Source: Arthrobacter sp. PM3
GTDB taxonomy: Bacteria; Actinomycetota; Actinomycetes; Actinomycetales; Micrococcaceae
Direction of reading: 5' to 3'
DNA: 64,000 bases
NCBI RefSeq assembly: GCF_003352915.1
Contig: NZ_CP022314.1
Location: 2,801,072 to 2,865,071, forward strand
The notes beneath the pieces were generated by a model, which saw nothing but the letters and a program-made list of their open reading frames with translations, was not told where the DNA came from and made no database searches. Both the position numbers and the translations under genes were made by a program. Shown here one piece after another: positions 44,942-50,688 of this stretch. Position 1 is the first letter of the stretch. Every line of letters begins with the position of its first letter.

Positions 44942-44984
44942 AGCGTAGGCGCCCGATTTTTCCGGGGTGTTTCCCGGGTGTTGC
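44942..44984 (-). promoter_or_regulatory. Promoter with GlnR-like box upstream of the flavoprotein gene
   Basis: On the minus strand the region reads GCAAC-N6-GAAAC-N6-GAAAA (44984 down to 44958), then exactly 10 bases, then the -10 box TACGCT (44947-44942). The predicted start of transcription is about 50 bases before the ATG. The half-sites fit the GTnAC/GAAAC pattern with an 11-base period. The same geometry recurs at nirB and nirD. Confidence 0.6.
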
Positions 44985-45076
44985 CGCCCCTGGCCTGCCT
45001 GTTCGCCAGTATTTACCGGCCGGTAATGCCGTGCGTCACACCTTCGCGGCGGGCGGGAACGGCGGGCGTGAACAAA

Positions 45077-45141
45077 GCAACGCGGGGTCACTTAGCGTCC
45101 ATAAATCACGGTGGGATGGGCGCTAGGTGACCCCGCGTTGC
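45077..45141 (-). terminator. Long hairpin ending the nirB-cobA-nnaR operon
   Basis: Arms 45077-45097 and 45121-45141 (starting GCAACGCGGGGTCAC) pair over 21 bases with one mismatch, leaving a 23-base AT-richer loop. The hairpin begins 1 base after the nnaR stop. It is unusually long for a terminator, so a small inverted-repeat insertion is possible. Confidence 0.6.
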
Positions 45142-45142
45142 G

Positions 45143-46330
45143 TTAGACCCGGATCCGGTAGCCGCGCTTGACCACGGTTTCGACCAGCCGGGTGTCCGGC
45201 AGCGCGGAACGGAGCCGGCTGACGGTCATGTCCAGGGCATGCACGGAGCCGCGCAGTTCCAGCAGCTCGGACAGCGCCTCGCGGGAGAGCACCGCCCCGC
45301 CGGCGCCGATCAGTGCGCGCAGCAGCAACAGCGGCGCCGGTGCCATCTCGACGGGTTCGCCGTTGATCCGCAGCGACCGGCCGCGCAGTTCGACGCTGCC
45401 GGAGATGGTGTCCAGCCGGCGCACGTGGTTCAGGGCCAGATGCTCGCAGACCAGCCGGATCAGCGCGCCCATCCGGAACCGTTCCGGGATCAGCGGGTGC
45501 AGTCCGGCGTCCAGCAGCGGCTGCGCGGTGATGGGCCCGACGACGGCGGTTGCCACGGTGGTCTTCAGGCTCTCCACGAGCTGCTTGTAGACGCCCATCT
45601 CGTGGGCCGTGCTCCACATCGCGTCCACGGCGGGGGCGCTGGTGAAGGTCAGGACGTCCAGGTTGCCGCTGCAGGCGGCCTCGATGAGCTTGGGCAGCCG
45701 GTCGGCGCCGTCCGGTTTGACCCAGCGGTATGGGGTGACCGTGAGGACCGTGGCGCCGGACATGCGCAGGCGCTCCAGCTGCCGGACATCGGTGTAGCCG
45801 TGCAGCTGCACGGCGACCGTCTTGCCGCGCACGCCCTCGGCAAGGAGCATGTCCACCAGGGTGGAGGTGGTTTCGTCGCTGCTGATCCCGACGTCGGCGA
45901 GCCCGGCCGCACGCACGGCGCCGCGTGCTTTGGGGCCGCGGACGAACATGCGCGTCGCGGAGAGGGTCTCCAGCAGCTGCTCGCCGATGCCGAACGTGTC
46001 CGCCGCCTCGCACCAGCGGCGCATGCCGTACGCGGTGGTGGCGATGCAGAGGTCCGGCTTGGCGGCGATGATGGCGCGCGTGTCATCGATCAGGCTCTGG
46101 TCCTCTCGGACCGGGGCGATCTTCAGCGCCGGGGCGTGAAGCACCTCCGCACCGCGGCGCTCCAGGGCCTCGATGAGGTCCTGGGAGCGGCGGTGCGAGG
46201 TGACGCCGATCCGGAAGCCGTCCAGGGGCAGGTCCTTCTCGGCCCCGTCGTCGGCGGGCTCCGGCGCGCCTGAAGTTACGGGGGTGCCGGGCTCCGGGAA
46301 GGCGGCGGCGATGGCATTGAGTGCGCTCAT
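45143..46330 (-). CDS. nnaR: NnaR-type regulator: uroporphyrinogen-III synthase-like domain fused to winged helix
   Basis: This 395-aa protein joins a HemD-like domain (about 35-285, starting GFRIGVTSHRRSQDLIEALERRG in two parts: GFRIGVTSH and RRSQDLIEAL) to an OmpR-type winged helix (about 305-395: ELRGRSLRINGEPVEMAPAP, LSREALSELL, VHALDMTVSRLRSALP, VVKRGYRIRV). Homologues named NnaR in Streptomyces and mycobacteria co-activate nitrate/nitrite genes with GlnR. The gene lies 8 bases after cobA in the nirB operon. Whether the HemD part still makes or senses tetrapyrrole is unknown. Confidence 0.85.
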   Translation of the reverse strand: MSALNAIAAAFPEPGTPVTSGAPEPADDGAEKDLPLDGFRIGVTSHRRSQDLIEALERRGAEVLHAPALKIAPVREDQSLIDDTRAIIAAKPDLCIATTAYGMRRWCEAADTFGIGEQLLETLSATRMFVRGPKARGAVRAAGLADVGISSDETTSTLVDMLLAEGVRGKTVAVQLHGYTDVRQLERLRMSGATVLTVTPYRWVKPDGADRLPKLIEAACSGNLDVLTFTSAPAVDAMWSTAHEMGVYKQLVESLKTTVATAVVGPITAQPLLDAGLHPLIPERFRMGALIRLVCEHLALNHVRRLDTISGSVELRGRSLRINGEPVEMAPAPLLLLRALIGAGGAVLSREALSELLELRGSVHALDMTVSRLRSALPDTRLVETVVKRGYRIRV

Positions 46331-46338
46331 GAGAATCC

Positions 46339-47373
46339 CTATGCTTCCAGCAGTGATGCGGCCAGCCGGTCGAGTTCGGCCGTGGCCTCGGCGCAGCCCC
46401 GGTTGGCTTCGGCTATCCGGACGACTTCGCCGATCACCAGGACCGCCGGGTTGCTGCAGCCGGCTGCTGCGGAGGTGATGGTGCCCAGCTCGGCGATTGT
46501 GGTGCGCTGGCCGGGGCGGTAGCCGCGCTCCACCACGGCCATCGGCATGTCGGTGCGCATCCCGGCCCGGCGGAGCCCGGCGGCCAGGTGGTGCAGGGTG
46601 CCGATGCCCATCAGGACAACAATGGTACCGCCGAGCCCGGCCAGGTGCTTCAGTTCGTTCTCGCTCAGCGGCGCATGGCCGGACACCACGGTGAACATGT
46701 GGCTGACCTCGCGGTGGGTGACGGGGATCCCGGCGGCGGCCGGCACCGAGATGGCGCTCGTCACTCCGGACACCACGCGCACCGGGACCCCGGCGGCGAC
46801 GCAGGACGCGACTTCCTCGCCGCCGCGGCCGAAGACGTACGGGTCACCGCCCTTGAGCCGGACCACGTTGTTGCCCGCCAGCGCGCTTTCCACCATGAGC
46901 TTTTCGATGTCGGCCTGGCTGACCTTGTGGTGGCCCGGCTTCTTGCCCACGTCCACCAGCTCCGCCGACGTCAGGGACGGCAGCTCCTGGTAGGGGGCCA
47001 GCCGGTCGTAGAAGACGACGTCGGCGTCCCGCAGTGCGTTGACGGCGGCCACGGTCAGCAGCTCCGTGGTGCCGGGGCCGCCGCCCACCAGGGTGACGTG
47101 ACCGGCCGGTCCCGCGGCGGGCTCCGCCGAGACCGGGATGCCGGCCGCGCGGCAGCGTTCCAGCAGAGCGTCCCACCCGGGCTGGCCGTCGTCGACGGCG
47201 GCGACCAGGAACGGCCGCTCCGGCAGGTCCCCGTCGAGTCCGGCGCCCTGCGGAGTGCTGAGGCGGTACACGACCGCGCCGGCGGCCTCGTAGCGGCGCA
47301 CGGCCTGGCGGGCGGCGGTTTCGGAACCGGTGACGAGGACATCCCGGCCGGTGAGATCGATGCTGAGCTGCAT
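46339..47373 (-). CDS. cobA: Uroporphyrinogen-III C-methyltransferase with degenerate CysG-like N-terminus
   Basis: This 344-aa enzyme methylates uroporphyrinogen III twice to precorrin-2, the path to siroheme for NirB. The C-terminal 250 residues are the methyltransferase: VTLVGGGPGTTELLTV, VFYDRL, RLKGGDPYVFGRGGEE, SGVTSAISVPAAAGIPVTHR. The first 95 residues resemble the dehydrogenase part of CysG but are shortened, and the usual GGGxVA loop reads VTGSETAARQ. ATG 47373 lies 2 bases after the nirB stop, so it is second in the operon. Ferrochelatase and a functional dehydrogenase must come from elsewhere. Confidence 0.88.
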   Translation of the reverse strand: MQLSIDLTGRDVLVTGSETAARQAVRRYEAAGAVVYRLSTPQGAGLDGDLPERPFLVAAVDDGQPGWDALLERCRAAGIPVSAEPAAGPAGHVTLVGGGPGTTELLTVAAVNALRDADVVFYDRLAPYQELPSLTSAELVDVGKKPGHHKVSQADIEKLMVESALAGNNVVRLKGGDPYVFGRGGEEVASCVAAGVPVRVVSGVTSAISVPAAAGIPVTHREVSHMFTVVSGHAPLSENELKHLAGLGGTIVVLMGIGTLHHLAAGLRRAGMRTDMPMAVVERGYRPGQRTTIAELGTITSAAAGCSNPAVLVIGEVVRIAEANRGCAEATAELDRLAASLLEA

Positions 47374-47375
47374 GG

Positions 47376-50051
47376 TTAGACACCACTTTCGATGGCTTCG
47401 CCGGTGGAGAGTCCGGCGGCCCGGACAGGGATGGTCGTGGCGATCAGCGTGGCGCCCTTTTCCTCGGCCGTGGCCGGGCGCATCTGGCCGCGCTCGTCCG
47501 GGACGAAGGTGATGGAGTCGTCCTTCTGGTCCGGGGCGTTGACGAAGGAGCGGAACCGGCGCAGGCGCTCGGGGTCCTTGAGGGTGTCGGCCCACTCGTC
47601 GATGTAGGTGTCGACATGCTTGGCCATGGCGGCCTCGAGTTCCTCGGCGATGCCCAGGGTGTCCTTGACGACGACGTCCTCGACGTGCTTGATGCCGCCG
47701 TCGAGCTCCTCCTGCCAGCGTGCGGTGCGCTGGAGGCGGTCGGCGGTGCGGATGTAGTACATGAAGTAGCGGTCGATGTACTTGATCAGCGTCTCGTCGT
47801 CGAGGTCCTTGGCGAGCAGTTGGGCGTGGGCCGGGGTGGCGCCGCCGTTACCGCCGACGTACAGGTTCCAGCCGTCCGCGGTGGCGATCACGCCGACGTC
47901 CTTGCCGCGGGCCTCGGCGCATTCGCGGGCGCAGCCGGAGACGCCCATCTTGAGTTTGTGCGGGCTGCGGAGGCCGCGGTAGCGCAGTTCGAGCGCGATG
48001 GCCATGGCGACCGAGTCCTGGACGCCGAAGCGGCACCAGGTGGAGCCGACACAGGACTTCACGGTGCGCAGGCTCTTGCCGTAGGCCTGGCCGGATTCGA
48101 AGCCGGCGTCCACCAGTTCCTTCCAGATTTCCGGGAGCTGCTCCAGCCGGGCGCCGAACATGTCGATGCGCTGGCCGCCGGTGATCTTGGTGTAGAGGCC
48201 GTATTTCTCGGCCACGGCGGCGATCACGCCGAGCTTCTTCGGGGTGATCTCGCCGCCGGCGATGCGGGGGACCACCGAATAGGTACCGTCCTTCTGCATG
48301 TTGGCCAGGGCGCGGTCGTTGGTGTCCTGCAGCGTGCCGCGGCCGGCGTCGAGGACGTAGGCGCTGTTCTGGCTGGCGAGGATGTTGGCGATGGTCGGCT
48401 TGCAGATGTCGCAACCCGCGCCGGTGCCGTACTTGGCCATGATCTCTTCGAACGAGGTCAGTTCCAGGACCCGGATCGCGTCGAAGAGTTCCTGCCGGGA
48501 CAGTTCGATGTGTTCGCAGAGGGCCTTGGAGACCTCGACGCCGGACTTGGTCAGCTCGGTTTCCAGCAGCTTCTTGAGCATCGGCACGCACGAGCCGCAC
48601 TGGGTGCCGGCGCGGGTGCAGCCCTTGAGCTCGCCGAGTTCCTGGACGGGGGCGTTGCGCTCGCAGGCGCCGCAGCCGTTGATGGCGTCGCGGATGGTCC
48701 CGGCCGTCACGTTGTTGCAGGAGCACAGGGTGGCGTCGTCCGGGAGTTCCGTTTCCGGGGCGTCCCCGCCGCCGGCGGCGGTGAGGTAGGCGCCCGGTTC
48801 GGCGGCGAGCTCGCGGCCCAGCATGGGGCGCAGGGACGTGTAGGGGGCGGCGTCGCCGACGAAGATGCCGCCGAGGAGGGTCTTCGCGTCGTCGGTGGTG
48901 ACGATCTTCTGGTAGACGCCGCGGGCGGGGTCGGCGTAGACGATTTCCAGGGAGTGCTCGGTCCGGGCGAACGCGTCGCCGAAGCTGGCCACGTCCACGC
49001 CGGAAAGCTTGAGTTTGGTGGCGGTGTCGAACCCGGGGAACGTCGCCTCGCCGCCGTGCAGCCGGTCGGCGACGATTTCGGCCATGGTGTTGGCCGGGGC
49101 CACGAGGCCCAGGCACATGCCGCCGAAGTTCGCGACCTCGCCGATCGCCCAGATGCCGGGGATCTCCGTTTCGCAGCTGTCGGAAATGACGACGCCGCCG
49201 CGCGGGCCCAGCTCAAAGAGCTGCTTGGCGCCCTCAGGGGCCCGGAAGAGCTCGTCGCGGGGTTTGACGCCGATGGCGACGATCACGATGTCGGCGTCGA
49301 TGATCCGGCCGTCGGCCATGAGGACGCCGGTGACCTGGCCGTCGTCGTCGGAAAGGACCTCGGAGGGGAACACGCCGCCGTGGACGGTGAAGCCCTTTGC
49401 CTCGATCAGGCGGCCGAGGGCCTGGCCGGCGCCCTCGTCCAGCTGGGTGTTCATGAGCCACGGCGAACCGTTGATGACCACGGGAACAGCGCCGAGCTGC
49501 TCGGTGCCTGCGGCGGATTCCAGGCCCAGGAGGCCGCCGCCGATCGTTACGGCGATGACCTTGCGGCCCAGCTTCCTGGTGAGGTCCGCGATGGCCTTAT
49601 TAATGGACCGGACGTCCTCAAGGGTGCGGTAGACATGGGTGAGTTCGGCGCCGGGGATGGGCAGCCGGGCCGCGTCGGAGCCCGTGGCGACGACGAGCTC
49701 GTCGAAGGGGTAGACGGTTCCTGCGGCGGTGGTGACGGTCTTGCCGGCGGCATCGATGCTGGTGACGCGCTCGCCGGTCTTGAGCTCCAGGGCGCCGTGG
49801 TCCCACATGGACGCCTCGCCCAGGGTGAGGTCGACGTCGGCGTCGGTGAGCGCCTTGCTCAGCGCGACGCGGTCGTAGGGGAGGTGGGCTTCCTCGGTGA
49901 GGACGGTGACGTGCCAGCCGTCGAGGCCGCGGGCGTGCATGGCATCGGCGAAACGATGGGCTGCAGGGCCGCCGCCGGCGACGACGACGCGTCGCGGGGT
50001 GGCGGCGCTGGCTGCGCCAAGGTTCTGGTGGCTTGAAGTCTGTCCGGTCAC
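47376..50051 (-). CDS. nirB: Assimilatory nitrite reductase, large subunit NirB
   Basis: This 891-aa cytoplasmic enzyme reduces nitrite to ammonium with NAD(P)H. The N-terminal FAD/NAD module has VVVAGGGPAAHRFADAM and IGGGLLGLESA. Then a BFD-like [2Fe-2S] region with CSCNNVTAGTI and CGACERNAP, CGSC, a second Cys-rich segment (GAGCDICKPTI), and the siroheme/[4Fe-4S] domain with SCVGSTWCRFG and GVSGCARECAEARG. GTG 50051 is chosen because AAAGG precedes it; an in-frame ATG at 50099 has no ribosome-binding site and sits close to the -10 box. It is first gene of nirB-cobA-nnaR. Confidence 0.93.
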   Translation of the reverse strand: MTGQTSSHQNLGAASAATPRRVVVAGGGPAAHRFADAMHARGLDGWHVTVLTEEAHLPYDRVALSKALTDADVDLTLGEASMWDHGALELKTGERVTSIDAAGKTVTTAAGTVYPFDELVVATGSDAARLPIPGAELTHVYRTLEDVRSINKAIADLTRKLGRKVIAVTIGGGLLGLESAAGTEQLGAVPVVINGSPWLMNTQLDEGAGQALGRLIEAKGFTVHGGVFPSEVLSDDDGQVTGVLMADGRIIDADIVIVAIGVKPRDELFRAPEGAKQLFELGPRGGVVISDSCETEIPGIWAIGEVANFGGMCLGLVAPANTMAEIVADRLHGGEATFPGFDTATKLKLSGVDVASFGDAFARTEHSLEIVYADPARGVYQKIVTTDDAKTLLGGIFVGDAAPYTSLRPMLGRELAAEPGAYLTAAGGGDAPETELPDDATLCSCNNVTAGTIRDAINGCGACERNAPVQELGELKGCTRAGTQCGSCVPMLKKLLETELTKSGVEVSKALCEHIELSRQELFDAIRVLELTSFEEIMAKYGTGAGCDICKPTIANILASQNSAYVLDAGRGTLQDTNDRALANMQKDGTYSVVPRIAGGEITPKKLGVIAAVAEKYGLYTKITGGQRIDMFGARLEQLPEIWKELVDAGFESGQAYGKSLRTVKSCVGSTWCRFGVQDSVAMAIALELRYRGLRSPHKLKMGVSGCARECAEARGKDVGVIATADGWNLYVGGNGGATPAHAQLLAKDLDDETLIKYIDRYFMYYIRTADRLQRTARWQEELDGGIKHVEDVVVKDTLGIAEELEAAMAKHVDTYIDEWADTLKDPERLRRFRSFVNAPDQKDDSITFVPDERGQMRPATAEEKGATLIATTIPVRAAGLSTGEAIESGV

Positions 50052-50101
50052 GGTGGGCCTTTCGCATGGGCCGCAGACGGTGCTCTGCAGCTTGTCCATC
50101 C

Positions 50102-50155
50102 AGACTAGGGAGAGGGAATTTCGCTTCAGTTTCCCGTTTGTTTCGTGATCTTAAC
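50102..50155 (-). promoter_or_regulatory. nirB promoter with four-half-site GlnR-like box
   Basis: On the minus strand: GTTAA-N6-GAAAC-N6-GAAAC-N6-GAAAT (50155 down to 50118), 10 bases, then -10 box TAGTCT (50107-50102). Transcription would begin near 50095, giving a leader of about 44 bases. GlnR boxes of actinobacteria are described as GTnAC-N6-GAAAC repeats with 11-base periodicity; two of four half-sites here are exact GAAAC. No good -35 is seen, as expected for an activated promoter. Confidence 0.7.
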
Positions 50156-50169
50156 TTCTGCATCACGAA
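50142..50169. promoter_or_regulatory. Inverted repeat between nirB and nirD
   Basis: TTCGTGAT (50142-50149) and ATCACGAA (50162-50169) are perfect 8-bp arms with a 12-base spacer. It overlaps the distal half-sites of the nirB box and lies between the two divergent promoters. It may bind a second regulator that acts on both. Confidence 0.5.
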
Positions 50170-50195
50170 TGCATTTCCGGCCGCGTGAGCTCTCT

Positions 50196-50249
50196 TTTAC
50201 GTCCCCGACACATTGACTGCACCCGCTTGTTACACCCCGGCCCTAGCTT
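50196..50249 (+). promoter_or_regulatory. nirD promoter with 11-bp periodic half-sites
   Basis: On the plus strand: TTTAC-N6-GACAC-N6-TGCAC-N6-GTTAC (50196-50233), 10 bases, then TAGCTT (50244-50249) as -10 box. All four half-sites end in AC and one is a full GTnAC match. The distance to the -10 box is the same as at nirB and at the flavoprotein gene. The leader to the nirD ATG is about 55 bases. Confidence 0.55.
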
Positions 50250-50310: not shown

Positions 50311-50688
50311 ATGACCGCAGTACTTGAAGTTGAGGAACGCGCGTTCCAGGAAGATGGCGACACCGCTGCCGGCTGGCACGGCGTGTGCGCCGTGGCGGAC
50401 CTGGAACCCGGCTGGGGCGAGGCCGCACTGATTTCCGGCCGCCAGGTCGCCCTGTTCCGCACCGTGGCCGGTGAGGTTTTCGCCGTCGCCCAGGAAGATC
50501 CGGCCACCGGCGCCCACGTCATGGCGCGGGGCATCACAGGATCCCGCGGTGCGCGCCCCACCATCGCCTCGCCGCTGCACAAGGAGGTCTATGACCTCGC
50601 CACGGGCGAATGCCTCACCGCCCCCGACCTCCGGATCGCCACATTCGCCACCAGGGTCGTGGACGGCCGCATCGAGGTGCGGCTCTAA
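50311..50688 (+). CDS. nirD: Assimilatory nitrite reductase, small subunit NirD
   Basis: This 125-aa protein has the Rieske-like fold of NirD, the partner of NirB. It shows WHGVCAVADLEPGWGEAALI near 27-46, FRTVAGEVFAVAQEDPATGA and ASPLHKEVYDLATGECL. As in other NirD proteins, the Cys/His ligands of true Rieske centres are absent. ATG 50311 follows GAGAGGGG; an in-frame ATG at 50293 is less well placed. It is divergent from nirB, whereas nirB and nirD are usually adjacent and co-directional. Confidence 0.92.
   Translation: MTAVLEVEERAFQEDGDTAAGWHGVCAVADLEPGWGEAALISGRQVALFRTVAGEVFAVAQEDPATGAHVMARGITGSRGARPTIASPLHKEVYDLATGECLTAPDLRIATFATRVVDGRIEVRL

Follow-up and report, generated by a model that had tools for sequence, protein, structure and literature searches.

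Predicted GlnR Arrays at a Fixed Distance from the -10 Box in the nirB, nirD and Flavoprotein Promoters of Arthrobacter sp. PM3, with a Shared NnaR-Type Palindrome between the Nitrite Reductase Genes

The Nitrite Reductase Locus and Its Promoters

The stretch of DNA analysed here (the window, 64,000 nucleotides) comes from a genome of 4.35 Mb in one contig and carries the genes for both subunits of nitrite reductase, nirB and nirD, in divergent orientation (Table 1). On the minus strand nirB is followed, with gaps of 2 and 8 bases, by a cobA-type gene and a putative nnaR, and the three appear to form one transcript with nnaR in last place. The nnaR product joins a HemD domain to an OmpR-type winged helix; an initial annotation of the same DNA had already read such a helix into the gene, and the PF00486 match bears it out. 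The NF005568 equivalog itself carries the name uroporphyrinogen-III synthase, and the name NnaR would rest on this pair of domains and on the place of the gene beside nirB. As for nirB, its true start is probably GTG 50051, since the listed ATG (50099) lies just two bases past the -10 box; on inspection, GAAAGG is seen ahead of this GTG.

Upstream of nirB, nirD and a small flavoprotein gene lie arrays of five-base half-sites repeated every 11 bases. The initial annotation had described all three, and its coordinates and half-site counts are confirmed by direct reading, as is its claim that exactly 10 bases separate the end of each array from a TANNNT box. At the three promoters, the -35 region is poor (by eye). 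Within this genome, the nirD array is the weakest of the three.

Table 1. Genes, arrays and palindromes of the nitrite reductase locus (window coordinates)
Feature	Position	Strand	Basis
Flavoprotein, 301 aa	43981..44886	-	PF07992; TIGR02374 match below cut-off
Flavoprotein -10 box TACGCT, 10 bases past array	44942..44947	-	sequence and conservation
Flavoprotein array, predicted GlnR sites: GCAAC-n6-GAAAC-n6-GAAAA (half-sites 44984-44980, 44973-44969, 44962-44958)	44958..44984	-	sequence and conservation
Palindrome TTACCGGCCGGTAA, upstream of flavoprotein array	45013..45026	.	like words in 28 of 30 loci
nnaR (putative), HemD domain and OmpR-type winged helix	45143..46330	-	PF02602, PF00486, NF005568
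cobA-type uroporphyrinogen-III C-methyltransferase	46339..47373	-	TIGR01469
nirB, nitrite reductase large subunit	47376..50099	-	NCBIfam TIGR02374
nirB -10 box TAGTCT, 10 bases past array	50102..50107	-	sequence and conservation
nirB array, predicted GlnR sites: GTTAA-n6-GAAAC-n6-GAAAC-n6-GAAAT (half-sites 50155-50151, 50144-50140, 50133-50129, 50122-50118)	50118..50155	-	sequence and conservation
NnaR-type palindrome, CAC (50164-50166)-N18-GTG (50185-50187)	50162..50189	.	published-motif match
nirD array: TTTAC-n6-GACAC-n6-(TGCAC)-n6-GTTAC (half-sites 50196-50200, 50207-50211, 50218-50222, 50229-50233)	50196..50233	+	sequence and conservation
nirD -10 box TAGCTT, 10 bases past array	50244..50249	+	sequence and conservation
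nirD, nitrite reductase small subunit, divergent from nirB	50311..50688	+	TIGR02378

Conservation in the Genus

The strongest evidence that the arrays are real is their conservation. A search with NirD, in which weak Rieske-type matches (E 1e-6 and worse) were left out of the counts, gave a match in 97 of 101 genomes of the genus, and from these 97 genomes 104 nirD upstream regions were taken. In 101 of the 104 loci, the first half-sites of the nirB and nirD arrays are exactly 40 bp apart; the three exceptions are L069, with a one-base change of register, L122, where extra sequence widens the gap to 57, and L138. A nirB array on the strand opposite nirD is present upstream in 103 of the 104, the locus with the register change and the one with the longer gap included. 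Over 99 distinct aligned sequences, the four nirB half-sites and nirD half-sites 1, 2 and 4 hold 1.6-2 bits per base, and the T, the A and the final T of both -10 boxes are invariant at 2 bits, while most spacer bases of the arrays carry less information than the half-sites.

nirD half-site 3 stands apart from this pattern, at 0.3-1.5 bits per base compared with 1.8-2 at the other three nirD half-sites. All four nirD half-sites of the initial annotation are there in this genome, but the third is not conserved in the genus and is unlike the motif in most loci of the wider family, and it was rejected as a real site. Without it, the nirD promoter reads as an a-site and a b-site followed by a gap and a second b-site, an arrangement also met upstream of the amt genes discussed below.

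Could such similarities be due to chance, or simply to close kinship between the genomes compared? The nirD array is after all the weakest here, its third half-site is not kept, and related genomes share sequence by descent. Yet shuffled sequence yields just 0-0.01 such sites per 64 kb, half-sites and spacing hold while the spacers diverge, arrays are also present in further genera of the family, and the last nirD half-site, GTTAC in this genome, is GAAAC in nearly all the relatives listed. Taken as an account of all three promoters, chance or kinship is therefore extremely improbable.

Pattern Searches in the Window and the Genome

The shuffling test compared the window with 100 dinucleotide shuffles of its 64 kb, using a template made of known GlnR half-sites followed by N10-TANNNT. 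With template weights that were chosen with the arrays already in view, nirB scores 27 on the four-box template, above every shuffled site (the best shuffled four-box site reaches 26); the flavoprotein scores 22 on the three-box template, a value matched by no shuffled site; and the nirD score of 25 (four-box template) corresponds to 0.01 shuffled sites per window.

The pattern GNNAC-n6-GAAAC-n6-GAAA matches exactly at two places in the 4.35-Mb genome, the nirB and flavoprotein promoters. With at most one mismatch it has 19 matches, against 6 for a backward control, and a second box pattern has 6, against 3 for its control. The box patterns alone are thus mildly specific, and it is n10-TANNNT together with conservation that separates the sites. 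The initial annotation had regarded equally good arrays in front of unrelated genes as evidence against its reading. A single such array with n10-TANNNT is present among the 19 + 6 pattern matches: at 1327393(+) (L022, about 1501-1550), CTTAC-GAAAC-GAAAC-n10-TAGCCT precedes a GNAT acetyltransferase gene with no clear role in nitrogen metabolism. This array lies between a glutamate dehydrogenase gene and the GNAT gene, and it is possibly a further GlnR target, or possibly a chance match. At 905270(-) (L169), a good four-box array precedes a trehalose-phosphatase gene, whose role in nitrogen metabolism is likewise not evident, with no TANNNT at n10.

GlnR and Its Other Candidate Targets

The half-sites resemble the GlnR boxes of Streptomyces and Mycobacterium, given as gTnAc-n6-GaAAc and Gn2AC-n6-GnAACA (excerpts of PMC10704036 and PMC3662644). 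As far as these excerpts go, the likeness extends to 5-bp half-sites, an 11-bp period, GAAAC as a strong b-site, and glnA, amtB and nirB as targets. The arrays described here differ in that they keep one and the same distance to the -10 box at several targets and in several genera, and in their composition, which is a-b-gap-b at nirD and amt and a-b-b at the flavoprotein gene.

The initial annotation had proposed GlnR as the binding protein, and several observations support it. Outside the window, the genome encodes a GlnR orthologue of 232 amino acids, whose best PDB relatives are 8hig and 8hih (E about 1e-75), which we take to be GlnR complexes; the E value against 4o1h, listed as GlnR, is 1.9e-25. 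Similar arrays precede glnA (GTAAC-GAAAC-GACAC-GAAAT-n10-TAGGGT) and three of the four amt genes. At the latter, GTAAC-n6-GCAAN-n17-GAAAC-n10 is followed by TAGCGT, GACACT or GACGAT, so that the box at n10 is TANNNT in one case and GANNNT in two. In the 1.5 kb scanned upstream of the fourth amt gene, no array rises above background; the same holds for three molybdopterin-oxidoreductase genes, candidates for nitrate reductase, over the 1.5 kb preceding the domain match. (One of these three lies just beyond the window. A separate feature of the glnA region, L030, is the word TCACACTGTGGA, which occurs twice upstream of the array.) Both glnA and amt belong to the classical targets of GlnR (PMC10704036, PMC3662644, in excerpt). 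More indirectly, independent RNA-seq of Arthrobacter sp. M7-15 has nirBD, amtB and glnA higher on nitrate than on ammonium, and its authors propose GlnR as the regulator (PMC12010642). Because the same layout precedes glnA and the amt genes, class-II-type activation by GlnR would be the best reading of the arrays.

The sequence of an array cannot by itself name the protein that binds it, since MtrA, another OmpR-type regulator, also binds GlnR-like boxes (excerpts of PMC6277429 and PMC13189361). The arrays might thus be bound mainly by a different regulator of this type, with MtrA the likeliest (or PhoP), leaving GlnR a secondary or competing role. The genome has 15 Trans_reg_C matches, and according to excerpts of three articles the MtrA and GlnR motifs are nearly identical, MtrA being present at the mycobacterial nirB promoter and at Streptomyces GlnR sites (PMC6277429, PMC13189361, PMC11162112). 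Set against this, glnA, amt and nir, the classical GlnR set, are among the genes with matching arrays here, and MtrA is described in the excerpt as a repressor there (PMC11162112), whereas a fixed 10-bp distance to the -10 box suits an activator. We regard a main role for MtrA or PhoP as unlikely, and GlnR remains the preferred candidate.

The NnaR-Type Palindrome between nirB and nirD

In the 40-bp gap between the nirB and nirD arrays sits a palindrome of the NnaR type. Its centre, 50175.5, is the mirror axis of the whole region: on both sides, the first half-site is 20.5 and the first base of the -10 box 68.5 positions away. The palindrome is imperfect. Its nirB-side half reads GTGAT, and in 11 of the first 30 genus loci GTTAG or GATAG takes the place of GTGAG on the nirD side. 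Comparable sites are known from Streptomyces coelicolor, Mycobacterium smegmatis and Mycobacterium abscessus, where motifs of the CTCAC-N16-GTGAG type lie near a GlnR box (PMC6277429, PMC11162112, both in excerpt); the site described here shares with them both the palindrome and its place beside GlnR sites at nir genes. The initial annotation had suggested a joint site for GlnR and NnaR. An NnaR-type palindrome is indeed present at nir, but it abuts the arrays without overlapping them, and none was found at the equivalent place of the flavoprotein promoter.

Since GTG and the 8 bases that follow it make 11, each predicted NnaR half precedes its array by one helical step. The gap of 8 is kept in the genus in 102 of 103 loci on the nirB side and in 101 of 103 on the nirD side, in the family in 15 of 20 on the nirD side and 8 of 20 on the nirB side (half-site score at least 6), and at 7 of 13 loci of the class, all with ties between half-site offsets resolved towards 8, which slightly favours the lattice reading. 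Where the two arrays of a family locus are far apart, GTGA remains at 8 on the nirD side (5 of 6 loci); where they are close, the inner spacer of the palindrome ranges from 16 to 19. The NnaR and GlnR sites therefore seem to share one helical lattice, and the position of NnaR would be set by the lattice of GlnR.

If NnaR shares the register of the arrays, might it fill both nir arrays alone? It carries an OmpR-type winged helix, and its half-site GTGA falls on the 11-bp lattice of the arrays. Such a role is nevertheless very unlikely, as inspection by eye of the corresponding place at the flavoprotein, glnA and amt arrays showed no such palindrome, the words GTGA and GAAAC differ, and the published NnaR motifs are of the CTCAC-N-GTGAG type. 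GlnR on the arrays with NnaR on the palindrome is thus the reading retained.

Beyond the Genus

At the cut-off used, NirB is found in 68 of 149 family genomes, and 20 genomes from 16 other genera were compared. In all 20, tblastn places nirD upstream of nirB and in divergent orientation. The two arrays are 38-41 bp apart in 11 of them, two of which have the nirD -10 box one base further away, and 85-163 bp apart in 6; in the remaining 3, both arrays were not properly found.

The picture thins out in the class, where NirB occurs in 101 of 197 genomes. Among 60 nirB upstream regions (one of only 400 bases), just 13 hold an array scoring at least 22 and 13 a flanked CAC-N18-GTG; most of the others hold neither. 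At the 13 CAC-N18-GTG loci, TANNNT begins exactly 56 bases after GTG in 6, from four families, a distance which reproduces the 8 + 38 + 10 layout described above. Apart from one locus at 55 and one at 72, the rest of the range 20-99 is empty.

A Model for Activation and Its Relation to Known Systems

As a whole, the data are very probably best explained by three nitrogen-regulated promoters activated by GlnR, with help from NnaR at nir. GlnR protomers, which are OmpR-type winged helices, would occupy the half-sites head to tail at intervals of 11 bp, and the last protomer, 10 bp before the -10 box, would take the place of a -35 element and recruit RNA polymerase in the manner of a class-II-type activator. 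At nirB and nirD, two such arrays would point outward from one NnaR-type palindrome. Since a single palindrome lies between both arrays, both promoters could be served by one NnaR dimer, which would keep the nitrite reductase subunits in step; and since nnaR would be the last gene of the nirB-cobA-nnaR transcript, its expression could form a positive feedback. Binding, activation and cooperation by GlnR and NnaR are all predicted here from the DNA. In S. coelicolor, NnaR is described as binding cooperatively with GlnR at the nirB promoter (excerpt of PMC10704036).

A bolder version of this model is plausible, although we lean slightly against it. NnaR and GlnR might form one continuous mixed array on the 11-bp lattice, in which an NnaR protomer heads each GlnR filament, held in place by the register of GlnR rather than by its own palindrome. 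The pair of NnaR protomers would then couple the two opposed filaments of nirB and nirD, so that both subunits would be switched on together.

How much of this is new? The feature is explained by a known system, and control of nir by GlnR and NnaR is already known. What this locus adds is the head-to-head layout, the register-locked NnaR halves and a putative, genus-specific flavoprotein target. The literature searched, whose coverage is partial, contained no description of mirror-image arrays with a shared palindrome and register-locked NnaR halves, and an earlier description is possible. Among class-II-type promoters of the OmpR family, PhoB pho boxes also consist of 11-bp direct repeats that end a fixed distance before the -10 box, with a poor -35. 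In M. smegmatis the spacing of the NnaR site to the GlnR motif is fairly conserved, according to an excerpt of PMC6277429. Unlike the known NnaR sites, the one described here is a single palindrome between the mirror-image arrays of divergent genes, with a distance to the arrays of one 11-bp step and a spacer of variable length in the family. A further parallel is offered by the SARP activators, which also have an OmpR-type DNA-binding domain and whose 11-bp direct repeats lie 8 bp before the -10 box at promoters with a poor -35 (excerpt of PMC10936776). As at these SARP/AfsR boxes, the arrays end a fixed distance before the -10 box, and the proximal protomer would replace the -35 element; the differences are another activator, another half-site, and a distance of 10 bp, with half-sites defined as in Table 1.

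The one-turn step between NnaR and the arrays bears on how NnaR helps GlnR in actinobacteria, and makes a geometric claim that can be tested. The constant 10 bp to the -10 box would make GlnR-activated targets in the family predictable by a simple rule.

The Flavoprotein Gene and Its Promoter

This rule already points to the flavoprotein, whose gene is present in all 101 sampled genus genomes (split or partial in three). At E 1e-30 it is found in 8 of 149 family genomes and 2 of 197 class genomes, every one of them belonging to the same genus, so that among the genomes sampled the gene is genus-specific; its named close relatives are from Arthrobacter, Pseudarthrobacter and Paenarthrobacter, which places the organism in that group. 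By sequence, the protein and the N-terminal part of NirB are related, and our guess is that it serves nitrate or nitrite assimilation as an NADH-linked electron donor.

The array upstream of the gene is present in all of the best-matching 30 of the 101 genus loci (own genome included), a few with single-base variants; these 30 include loci from three genomes with no NirD match (G018, G024 and G072, the last only 83% complete). In a second set of named genomes, made of the 32 loci out of 80 with at least 67% identity and overlapping in part with the 101, it is present in 31; the exception has its -10 box one base nearer, at 9. No CAC-N18-GTG was found by eye at the equivalent place of this promoter in the window sequence. 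With a predicted GlnR array and without this NnaR-type site, the flavoprotein gene would therefore answer nitrogen limitation without NnaR.

A palindrome of another kind, the TTACC-N4-GGTAA type, precedes the flavoprotein array. In L163 and L166 it stands about 22 bases further away from the array, and it was not found in L146 and L152, where only some 50 bases upstream of the array are covered. It is not called an NnaR site here, because its sequence is different and its distance to the array shifts in two loci.

In L138 (G031), one of the three exceptions to the 40-bp gap, nirD stands divergently beside the flavoprotein gene instead of nirB, and the only array found is that of the flavoprotein side. 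Finally, a 15-bp inverted repeat, GCAACGCGGGGTCAC ... GTGACCCCGCGTTGC, occupies positions 45077-45141, 3' of nnaR, and is probably a terminator hairpin between nnaR and the flavoprotein gene; similar words recur upstream of the flavoprotein gene in L152 and L161.
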